Assembly: GCA_003165795.1 (NCBI GenBank)
Contig: PMWW01000164.1
Location: 23,218-87,217 of the forward strand
DNA: 64,000 nucleotides
Source of the DNA: Acidobacteriaceae bacterium
GTDB lineage: Bacteria > Acidobacteriota > Terriglobia > Terriglobales > Acidobacteriaceae
Direction: 5' to 3'
Shown here: positions 262-4,472 of the stretch, piece after piece
Numbering within the stretch: the first letter of the stretch is position 1
Layout of the letters: every line of letters begins with the position of its first letter
The notes under the pieces: model-generated
Told to the model about the DNA's origin: nothing
The model's database searches: none
Seen by the model: the letters and a program-made list of their open reading frames with translations, nothing else
Translations under genes and position numbers: made by a program

Positions 262-945
262 TTACGCCGCGACCGCCATCCGCCGGGCTTCCATGCCATC
301 CAGCACATGCCACAACGACTTTGCCGCGATCTCAGCCGCGTTCAGCGCTTCGTCGGCGTGCTCGGGATTCGCTGAAACTTCCGCGCTCAACAGTTCCTGC
401 CAAACGTGCGAATGCTCAACGTCGGCGAACTGGTGCAGCTTGAAATATGCGCAAGTCTTCGCGTCCGCGCCGTAGCGTTGCGCCAGGCCATCAGCCTTTT
501 CCTTTGCTACGCGCGGAACCTGCGACTCGTAGGCGTAAAACGCAGCCAGCGCCTCGGCTGTCGATCCTTCGCGGGCGATGCGACGAAACTCGGCGATCAG
601 CTCGTGAACTTCAGGCAGCGGTTCGCGTCCACGTACGTCGTCGCGATTCGCGCCCATGCCTTCGGCAAAGTCGAGCCACAATTCGCTGTGCGGACGCCCT
701 TCAATCTCCTCGCCACACAAGTTGCGCAACACGGCGCGGCGCGTCTCGCCATCGTCCAGCCGCGAGTGCAACGCGCTCAAGTAAGCCGGGAAAGCGGCGA
801 CGTGATGATAGTAGTCGCTGGCATATTCGCGCAGATCTTCGCGCGTAAGCTGGCCCGCAGTCCACGCCTTGTAATAGGGATGGCACAACAGGTCGTAGCC
901 GGCAATGCGCTGCTCAAGGGCGGTCAGAAAAACTTGCAATTCCAT
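262..945 (-). CDS. CADD-like diiron oxygenase (TenA/PqqC fold), probable self-sacrificing pABA synthase
   Basis: The protein resembles chlamydial CADD along its whole length: a YLSALHSR block, an LCGEEIEGRPHSELW block, YESQVPRVAKEK, and a C-terminal HQFADVEH block. These supply the Glu/His/Glu/His-x3-Asp-x2-His ligands of a dinuclear metal site. The Tyr of HPYYKAW and the Lys of the AKEK block align with the Tyr and Lys reported as consumed by CADD when it makes p-aminobenzoate for folate. The ATG at 945 is chosen because GGGGG (951-955) sits five bases upstream; a longer frame begins at 987. It is probably cytosolic. It stands alone with no folate genes beside it. The fold assignment is strong; the pABA role is inferred from residue conservation. 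Confidence 0.85.
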   Translation of the reverse strand: MELQVFLTALEQRIAGYDLLCHPYYKAWTAGQLTREDLREYASDYYHHVAAFPAYLSALHSRLDDGETRRAVLRNLCGEEIEGRPHSELWLDFAEGMGANRDDVRGREPLPEVHELIAEFRRIAREGSTAEALAAFYAYESQVPRVAKEKADGLAQRYGADAKTCAYFKLHQFADVEHSHVWQELLSAEVSANPEHADEALNAAEIAAKSLWHVLDGMEARRMAVAA

Positions 946-1040
946 CATTTCCCCCACATAAGAATTGGCATTAGGAAGTGAGAACACTATACGGGAGGAC
1001 GGCGCAGCGGTACAAGGGGCAGGGGTTGCTTCTCGCGGCG

Positions 1041-2141: not shown

Positions 2142-4472
2142 TTGCCGTTGCAATTCACTGAAACCTACGACGTTGTGGTGGTGGGCGCCGGTCATGCCGG
2201 ATGCGAGGCTGCCATGGCTTGCGCGCGCATGGGCCTGAACACCGCGCTCTTCACCCTCAACGTCGATCTCATCGCGCAGATGTCGTGCAACCCTGCTATT
2301 GGCGGCATTGCCAAGGGACACCTGGTGCGCGAAGTCGACGCGCTGGGCGGCATCATGGGCGAGGTGACTGACGCGGTCGGCATCCAGTTTCGCTTGCTGA
2401 ATACTTCGCGCGGGCCGGCGGTGTGGTCTCCACGGGCGCAGTGCGACAAGCAGCAATACCGCCAGAAGATGCGCGAGATGCTGGAGTCGGAGCCTAATCT
2501 CAAGATCAAACAGGCGGAAGTAGCTGAGCTGATTGTTGAGAGTCAAGTTTCAAGTGAGTCCCAACAGCACCTGGCAATTAGCGATCAGCAACTAGTCAAT
2601 ACTCCCGTCATCCCGAGCCCAGTCGAGGGATCGGTTGTTGTTCTCGAAACTGGAAACTCGAAACTTGAAACTTCTTACCTCGTTCGCGGCGTCAAGCTAC
2701 GCGATGGCCGCACCGTCGGCGCGCAGGCCATCATCATCACCACCGGCACATTTCTCAACGGGTTGATCCATTGCGGCGAGCAGCAATATCCCGCCGGACG
2801 CAGTGGCGAACCGGCTGCCGTTTTGTTGGGCGAATCGCTGAAGGCGCTTGGCCTGCGCGGCTGCCGCCTGAAGACCGGCACTCCGCCGCGGCTCGACGGG
2901 CGCAGCATCGACTGGTCGAAGTTCAAGGAGCAGCCCGGCGATGCCGATCCCACGCCCTTCAGCTTTCGCACCCGGCGAGTGGCGCATCACGATAATCAAG
3001 TGCCGTGCTACATCGCGTACACCACGGCTGAGACGCACCGCATCATTCGCGAAAACGTGCATCGCTCACCCATGTACAGCGGGCAGATCCAGTCGATTGG
3101 TCCGCGCTACTGCCCGTCGATCGAGGACAAGATCGTCAAGTTTCCCGACAAAGAGACTCACCAGCTTTTCCTCGAACCTGAGGGCCTGAACACCCACGAG
3201 ATCTATGTCAATGGCATGAGCACCTCGCTGCCGATCGAGGTGCAACTCGCCATCATCAAGTCGATCCCCGGCCTGGAAAATGCGGAGATGCTGCGGCCCG
3301 GATATGCGATTGAGTATGACTCCATCGATCCGACCGAATTGCAACGCACGCTGGAGACCAAGAAGATTGCGCACCTCTATCATGCCGGCCAGATCAATGG
3401 CACCAGCGGCTACGAAGAGGCAGCGTGCCAGGGACTGATGGCCGGGATCAACGCTGCGCTCAAGGTGAAAGGCGAGCCGCCTTTGATCCTCGATCGCACC
3501 GAGGCCTACACCGCGATCCTGATCGACGATCTCATCAGCAAGGGGACGAATGAGCCCTATCGCATGTTCACTTCGCGGGCCGAGTTTCGCCTGCACCTGC
3601 GCATCGACAACGCCGACCGCCGTCTGACGCCACATGGCCGTCGCGTGGGACTGATCAGCGATGGTGCGTGGGCTGACCATCTTGCCAAGCAGGAGCGCAT
3701 GAAGGCGATGCGCGACTTGCTGGAGCGCACGCGGGTGAATGGCGACATGCTGGAGTTGCTGCAACCGGAAGTTTCAAGTTCCCAGTTCCCAGTTTCCAGT
3801 AAAGGCGCGGAAGCGACCGAACCTCGCGCCTCGCGGCAGGAATCGGACTCTTTCCTGGGAGTGACGCTCGCCCAGCTACTCAAACGACCTGAGGTCCGGA
3901 TCGAAGCTCTGGCGCCGCTGCTGGCAAGGTTGATGCCAGAGTTCTTCAATCGCGACGACGCAGTTTCAAGCTTCGAGTTTCCAGTTTCGAGCAAGCCGCA
4001 TCTTTCCGACTCGGCGGAACCGCAGATCCCTCGGCTCGGACTAAGGTCCTCGCTCGGGATGACAATTACAAGCGATGGAAGTGTCGAGAATGGAAGTGTG
4101 GAGGAGAATCCTAGCGAGCCGCCGCTTGAAACTGGAAACTTGAAACTTGAAACTGGTTTCCGCCTTCCGACGGAAATCCGCAACGAGTTGAAGTCGGTGG
4201 AGACGGAAATCAAGTATTCCGGCTATCTCGATCAGCAGACCAAGGCGATCGAGCGGCTGAAGCGCTCGGAGCAGCGCATGATTCCCGACTGGTTTGACTA
4301 CGGAAAAGTTTCGGGACTCTCGCGCGAGATGAACGAGAAGCTCGCCCGCGTGCGTCCACGCACGCTGGGACAAGCAAGCCGCATCCCCGGCGTCACGCCC
4401 GCTGCTGTCTCGCTGATCAACGTGTTCATCGAGATTCAGGGGCGTCAGCAAGCGGCCGCAGCATCGCGGTGA
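2142..4472 (+). CDS. mnmG: tRNA uridine-5-carboxymethylaminomethyl modification enzyme MnmG (GidA) with repeat-derived insertions
   Basis: With MnmE, MnmG makes the (carboxymethyl)aminomethyl group at U34 of certain tRNAs, using FAD. Visible family blocks are the Rossmann [10 protein letters not shown] (15-24), [25 protein letters not shown] (241-250), the YCPSIEDK block with its conserved Cys (323-330), [28 protein letters not shown], and the C-terminal [10 protein letters not shown]. The protein has 776 residues against about 620-630 normally. The excess lies at residues about 134-179, 544-570 and 607-672, which encode translated copies of dispersed DNA repeats ([32 protein letters not shown]) and keep the frame. 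The start is a TTG after a GGGG stretch; no upstream ATG exists in frame. Family blocks flanking the insertions are intact, so the enzyme is probably functional. Confidence 0.95.
2538..2681 (+). repeat. In-frame repeat insertion 1 in mnmG
   Basis: The segment is a mosaic of four elements seen elsewhere: GTTTCAAG; a TTAGCGATCAGCAACTAG piece like the CTGATTGCTGACCGCTGA repeats near 7730-7755; GTCATCCCGAG...GTCGAGGGATC (end motifs of the 169-250 repeat); and GAAACTGGAAACTCGAAACT. It lies between LIVES and [11 protein letters not shown], a turn between two strands in the family fold. Confidence 0.75.
3770..3802 (+). repeat. In-frame repeat insertion 2 in mnmG
   Basis: GTTTCAAGTTCCCAGTTCCC followed by a further AGTTTCCAGT unit encodes [10 protein letters not shown]. 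It is the complement-type copy of the GAAACTTGAAACTGG element found at 2644-2672 and 4124-4158. It lies in a region of MnmG that varies in length among relatives. Confidence 0.75.
3961..4158 (+). repeat. In-frame repeat insertion 3 in mnmG
   Basis: It consists of GTTTCAAGCTTCGAGTTTCC at the left end, a reverse-oriented copy of the 169-250 element (CAGATCCCTCGGCTCG ... CTCGGGATGAC, about 4022-4062), and GAAACTGGAAACTTGAAACT at the right end. The outer pieces are roughly inverted with respect to each other. The net result adds about 60 residues without a stop. Confidence 0.75.

Follow-up and report, generated by a model that had tools for sequence, protein, structure and literature searches.

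The gene at positions 262 to 945 of a 64,000-nucleotide stretch of Acidobacteriaceae DNA (contig PMWW01000164.1; the whole stretch is called the window here) quite probably encodes a self-sacrificing p-aminobenzoate (pABA) synthase of the kind represented by CADD of Chlamydia trachomatis and NePabS of Nitrosomonas europaea, and quite probably provides the only pABA source recognised in its own genome. Hereby, we infer the chemistry and the single use of the window enzyme from CADD and NePabS. Enzymes of this type are already known, including one from a free-living bacterium. New here are the apparent use as sole source in a lineage without a host, the presence of a Mn/Fe-type residue pair, and relatives that seemingly have no route to pABA. 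The terms "soil" and "free-living" apparently apply to this organism, judging from its nearest relatives and the size of its genome.

The original prediction had placed a CADD-like enzyme, with the Tyr, the Lys and all metal ligands conserved, at positions 262-945. These coordinates are exact for an open reading frame (ORF) on the minus strand, in which the A of the ATG (MELQ...) lies at 945 and the stop codon at 262-264, and the assignment itself is borne out by a score of 225 bits (E = 7.7e-67; curated cut-off 200) to TIGR04305, the "CADD family putative folate metabolism protein", and by the alignment of Y25, K150 and the six ligands. At the level of sequence, membership in the CADD family is thus confirmed, far beyond chance. 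Upstream of the ORF an ATG at 948 and a GTG at 987 are further possible starts; the ATG at 945 was chosen because the GGGGG stretch at 951-955 fits it.

262..945, minus strand: predicted CADD/PabS-type self-sacrificing p-aminobenzoate synthase gene, 227 amino acids plus stop (by TIGR04305, matches to PDB sequences and fold model)
951..955, minus strand: GGGGG, a possible ribosome-binding stretch 5' of the ATG at 945 (judged from the sequence)

The best solved sequences for the window protein are 1rcw, 8va9 and 9pj4, whereby phmmer against the PDB gives E = 3e-42 for CT610 (1rcw) and E = 1.9e-39 for the 4-aminobenzoate synthase 9pj4. We took the latter to be NePabS, because its sequence contains the NePabS peptides printed in PMC11965152 (this and the other articles given by PMC number are cited from excerpts). 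The nearest named relatives, among them a protein of 88% identity in an Acidobacteriaceae metagenome-assembled genome, mark the organism as an acidobacterium. The gene also occurs in a cultured relative, Edaphobacter lichenicola M8UP22 (L159). An AlphaFold2 model, calculated from an input alignment of the window and locus proteins only, shows a mean pLDDT of 97.3 and a pTM of 0.93. In a Foldseek comparison with the PDB the CtCADD entries (8va9, 1rcw, 8vag) rank first with a target TM-score (TMt) of 0.93-0.94, and PqqC follows at 0.75. The model thus predicts a heme-oxygenase-like fold, and the alignment of the ligand residues predicts a six-ligand dimetal site. PqqC and BesC, members of the HDO proteins, have the heme-oxygenase-like fold in common with the window protein; assignment to either was rejected, as the scores of 54.2 bits to TIGR02111 (PqqC) and 61.4 bits to NF042919 (BesC) are far under the curated cut-offs of 240 and 500.

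Alignment with NePabS and with CT610, whose ligands we take to be E81, H88, E142, H174, D178 and H181, locates the following residues in the window protein:

871..873, minus strand: codon of Y25 (second Tyr in HPYYKAW), aligned with the sacrificial Tyr27 of CADD and Tyr25 of NePabS (role: PMC11965152)
496..498, minus strand: codon of K150 (second Lys in AKEK), aligned with the amine donor Lys152 of CADD and Lys159 of NePabS (role: PMC11965152)
412..711, minus strand: span of the six metal ligands predicted by alignment, E79 (709-711), H86 (688-690), E140 (526-528), H171 (433-435), D175 (421-423) and H178 (412-414)
529..531, minus strand: codon of Y139, aligned with Tyr141 of CADD and Phe148 of NePabS (metal choice: PMC11965152)
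445..447, minus strand: codon of Y167, aligned with Tyr170 of CADD and Phe177 of NePabS (metal choice: PMC11965152)

The positions of Tyr27, Lys152, Tyr141 and Tyr170 in CADD are given in PMC11965152. According to this paper, the pABA produced by NePabS derives from the enzyme's own Tyr25 and Lys159, and Tyr41 is essential and Tyr45 and Trp99 are important for activity. The window residues Y41, Y45 and W90 align with these last three, substitution of which reduces or eliminates the activity of NePabS (PMC11965152). In the mechanism proposed for the window enzyme, the dimetal site of E79, H86, E140, H171, D175 and H178 would activate O2, and a radical would pass via the aromatic residues Y139, Y167, W90, Y45 and Y41 to Y25, whose ring would then be excised and, with O2 as the oxygen source, converted to the carboxylate by oxidation. 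The side-chain nitrogen of K150 would aminate the ring to yield pABA, which dihydropteroate synthase (DHPS) would consume. Each protein molecule would hereby perform one turnover. One protein per folate is costly, and NePabS yields less than 0.1 pABA per monomer in vitro, its working in the cell not being settled (PMC11965152). Both points would suit a true pABA synthase that is non-sacrificial in the cell and makes many pABA per protein from a free substrate or with repair. Since the window protein shares the residues of the sacrificial enzymes, we consider this very improbable.

TIGR04305 finds a match in 38 of 297 genomes of the phylum; 20 of these exceed 170 bits, and 15 pass the curated cut-off of 200. 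The line of 170 bits between CADD and other HDO proteins was set after viewing the gaps in the scores, which extend from 174.6 to 103.4 bits in the phylum and from 171.7 to 90.6 bits in the order; the curated cut-off would retain 15 of 297 phylum genomes and 32 of 160 order genomes. All 20 phylum proteins above the line, the window's included, keep Tyr27, Lys152, Tyr43, Tyr47, Trp92 and the ligands (CADD numbering). In a contrast group of 10 distant homologues from the same phylum (at most 103 bits to TIGR04305, loci fetched), Tyr27 and Lys152 are both missing in every case, whereas E81, H88, E142 and H174 are kept in seven. Tyr27, Lys152 and the six ligands are present in all 147 acidobacterial loci of the CADD group (124 distinct sequences), and 11 of the 13 positions examined are invariant over these loci, the variable ones being 141 (Tyr in 146, Phe in one) and 170 (Tyr in 141, Phe in six). 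As 80 of the 147 loci were found by patterns that include AYES and W-x-x-F, the search itself partly selected for Tyr141, Glu142 and Trp92, but not for Tyr27 or Lys152. The unbroken retention of these two residues bears on a further explanation, namely that pABA is taken up from the surroundings while the CADD-like protein carries out another oxidation, serves as a minor supplement or moonlights. To our knowledge, no other HDO chemistry requires Tyr27 and Lys152, which argues against it.

Tyr/Tyr at positions 141/170 is found in the window protein and in 140 of the 147 loci, Tyr/Phe in six loci of other acidobacterial families and Phe/Tyr in one (L184). In NePabS, Phe148 and Phe177 go with Fe/Fe; changing Phe177 to Tyr, or changing both, leads to Mn/Fe as in CADD, while the Phe148-to-Tyr change alone gives an enzyme that accepts both (PMC11965152). 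If these two residues decide, the Y139/Y167 pair predicts Mn/Fe rather than Fe/Fe for the window enzyme. This prediction is not certain, because changes at Tyr141/Tyr170 of CADD resulted in an enzyme accepting both metals and not in a full switch (PMC11965152). A 2026 review states that no HDO other than the C. trachomatis enzyme is known to carry an Fe/Mn cluster (PMC13108848), and according to the published view Mn/Fe in CADD reflects iron limitation in the host (PMC11965152). With the same proviso on positions 141/170, Mn/Fe in the present organism would sit badly with this suggestion, and the prevalence of the Tyr/Tyr pair in acidobacterial loci makes a direct test of the host-iron view possible.

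The genome to which the window belongs is a draft of 4.95 Mb in 208 contigs, 99.35% complete. It contains one PF03070 protein, which is the window's, one PF00425 protein, which is TrpE (567 bits to TIGR00564, cut-off 518), and one PF01063 (class-IV aminotransferase) protein, which is IlvE (406 bits to TIGR01122, cut-off 246). On the sole PF00425 protein the PabB models among the matches listed stay below their cut-offs (TIGR00553, 303 vs 328 bits; TIGR01824, 366 vs 409 bits), as do the PabC models on the sole PF01063 protein; hence neither pabB nor pabC was found in the draft genome. DHPS is present (289 bits to TIGR01496, cut-off 163), and pABA is therefore needed by the organism; a second pterin-binding protein lies within a frame of 1201 amino acids. 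The original prediction had suggested a folate route that bypasses pabA, pabB and pabC or works beside them. Of the complete pabABC set sought in the draft genome, only a TrpG/PabA-type amidotransferase, following trpE, was recovered. This supports the suggested route and favours "bypasses": judging from the gene content, with TrpE and IlvE as the only candidates and DHPS present, the window enzyme would replace pabB and pabC in this draft genome.

PabB is nearly excluded from the CADD-bearing relatives. PF00425 was searched in 60 of the phylum genomes, and in the window's family all 14 genomes with CADD hold a single PF00425 protein (TrpE), while 20 of the 22 genomes without CADD hold two and the remaining two (G065, G155) one. 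The 20 second proteins, mostly of PabB-PabC length, fall into a single clade with support 100 that includes no CADD-bearing genome; the clade member that was scanned, L079, is over the TIGR00553 (PabB) cut-off. Six CADD-bearing genomes belong to other families; a single PF00425 protein is present in four of them, and G259 and G039 have a second, isochorismate-synthase-like one. For the second proteins of these last two genomes and of G235 the highest-scoring model is isochorismate synthase (TIGR00543), with scores that stay below the cut-off, and the PF00425 tree excludes these three proteins. Two PF00425 proteins are found in eight of 15 further phylum genomes without CADD, one in three and none in four. 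In an order-level sample of 160 genomes (at least 95% complete, contig counts rounded), a single PF00425 protein occurs in 59 of 62 genomes with CADD vs 39 of 98 without (Fisher p = 9e-14, uncorrected for kinship). The figures are 15/16 vs 3/31 among genomes of at most 10 contigs and 5/6 vs 1/11 among those of one contig. Second proteins were classified in 20 of the 59 order genomes that lack CADD and hold at least two PF00425 proteins; these 20 form the one PabB clade, and the rest were assumed to be PabB. In G366 and G409, which have CADD and two PF00425 proteins, TIGR00553 matches one protein only.

These counts also bear on the idea that a pabB/pabC pair is hidden in an assembly gap of the window's genome, with CADD working beside it. 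The division of the draft into 208 contigs, and the genome G361 with CADD plus a protein over the PabB cut-off, would permit this. Given the completeness of the draft, a genus-mate (G352) with CADD and one PF00425 protein, and the 15 of 16 low-contig genomes with CADD and a single PF00425 protein, the sixteenth being the closed G366 with its one TIGR00553 match, we regard a hidden pair as extremely improbable.

Several observations weigh against CADD as the sole and novel pABA source of this lineage. In a TrpE tree built from 35 genomes of the family, which leaves out the proteobacterial-type TrpE of G194, CADD changes four times and PabB four times, and the three supported independent contrasts comprise on average 1.9 in the opposite direction, 1.1 without difference and none the same way, which is not significant. 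The mutual exclusion of CADD and PabB is therefore not statistically proven on this tree, because only three such contrasts exist. Of the three order genomes with CADD and two PF00425 proteins, G361 alone has a protein exceeding the PabB cut-off. No folate gene lies beside the window CADD gene in the flanks inspected for a folate cluster, and NePabS is a proven earlier case in a free-living bacterium. Furthermore, both CADD and a second PF00425 protein are lacking in 39 of the 160 order genomes, e.g. G364 (one contig), G378, G065 and G155; a DHPS match is nevertheless found in all 39 (38 over the cut-off, one clipped by a contig start). In G378, which belongs to the window's genus, a single contig spans the region from the tgt side to mnmG, and CADD and a Sel1-type gene are missing from it. 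Sources of pABA besides CADD and PabB are thus common in the order. In the neither-route genomes pABA uptake or another source must serve, and this could in principle serve the window's organism as well; the 39 genomes represent either pABA auxotrophy or a third pABA route.

Uptake, with another task for the CADD-like protein, draws its support from these 39 genomes with their DHPS, from the same-genus G378, and from the acidobacterial strain CCO287, which was grown with a vitamin mix including p-aminobenzoate. Biotin was the key need of this strain, and strain SBC82 did not require vitamins (PMC6252331). In view of the retained Tyr27 and Lys152 and of the near absence of PabB where CADD is present, we consider this explanation unlikely and retain the self-sacrificing pABA synthase as the preferred assignment. 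A wider proposal, to which we give somewhat less than even weight, is that in a large free-living soil lineage of the Acidobacteriota the chorismate-to-pABA pathway was replaced by a single-use Mn/Fe (CADD)-type enzyme as sole pABA source. Mn/Fe would then not be an answer to iron starvation within a host, and the sister genomes with neither route would be auxotrophs fed by neighbours or would use a third pABA route. The lineage offers a host-free setting, in which replacements have occurred between close relatives, to study why one protein should be spent per folate; the 39 genomes with DHPS and without a known pABA route pose a second, separate question.

Compared to the known systems, the window protein shares about 41% identity with NePabS (NE1434), along with the same sacrificial Tyr and Lys and the same ligands; in both cases the host is free-living (apparently so for the window) and the gene lies outside a folate cluster. 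NePabS differs in having Phe148/Phe177, with best activity with Fe/Fe (PMC11965152), where the window protein, its activity being predicted, has Tyr at both positions, and in a 9-residue insertion. The ne1434 gene complements an E. coli pabABC deletion, as cited in PMC11965152. With CADD (CT610) the window protein shares about 40% identity, the sacrificial pair, the ligands and the Tyr141/Tyr170 pair. CADD differs in that its host is an intracellular pathogen and its gene lies among folate genes (PMC11965152), and the window protein has nothing that corresponds to the role in host apoptosis reported for CADD. The PabB-PabC fusion of relatives without CADD (e.g. L079, G033) has the same expected product; it is unrelated to the window protein and makes pABA from chorismate. 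Wolbachia, Rickettsia, Chloroflexi, Sphingomonas and Nitrosomonas are named as holders of the enzyme in PMC11965152, the excerpts of which do not name Acidobacteria; a word search of that paper likewise counts no mention of them. In open-licence papers, screened by title and abstract where any were listed, we found no report of a pABA synthase, self-sacrificing or other, or of folate and pabB in connection with auxotrophy, in Acidobacteria, which does not prove that none exists.

A midpoint-rooted tree of the CADD genes places the majority of the family's copies in a single group. The copies of G313, G389 and G339 fall into a second group, which also holds CT610, NePabS and the CADD of other Acidobacteriota families. 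This second lineage was apparently acquired separately by the family. In G313 (L222 5434-6207, minus strand) and G339 (L221 5528-6241, plus strand) the second-type CADD is followed by the purine gene purD, which recalls glyA beside ne1434 in Nitrosomonas (PMC11965152). Two genomes deserve separate mention. The only PF00425 protein of G194 (L070 923-2812, minus strand) is a TrpE of proteobacterial type, over the TIGR00565 cut-off and unlike the TrpE of its relatives, likely due to gene transfer. G235 carries a broken CADD gene (L186 2023-2490, minus strand), in which the frame enters other sequence after a CADD start and which may represent either a pseudogene or an artefact of assembly; its two PF00425 proteins are one TrpE-like and one isochorismate-synthase-like.

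A check of the CADD neighbours, which covered mnmG, tgt and secD, found mnmG or tgt near CADD in 50 of 80 named loci, and in 31 of the 49 among them with nearly full flanks; the position of the window CADD gene is therefore an old one. The mnmG gene of the window (2142-4472) contains in-frame pieces of a dispersed repeat at about 2600-2700, 3760-3990 and 4000-4160. The repeat copies are about 21-30 bp long and run in both orientations, and relatives have other inserts or none at those spots. These pieces recall the palindromic elements inserted into rickettsial proteins. Of a repeat-like stretch downstream of CADD, 23 bases at 235-257 of the window recur exactly, in inverted orientation, in the mnmG region of G378.
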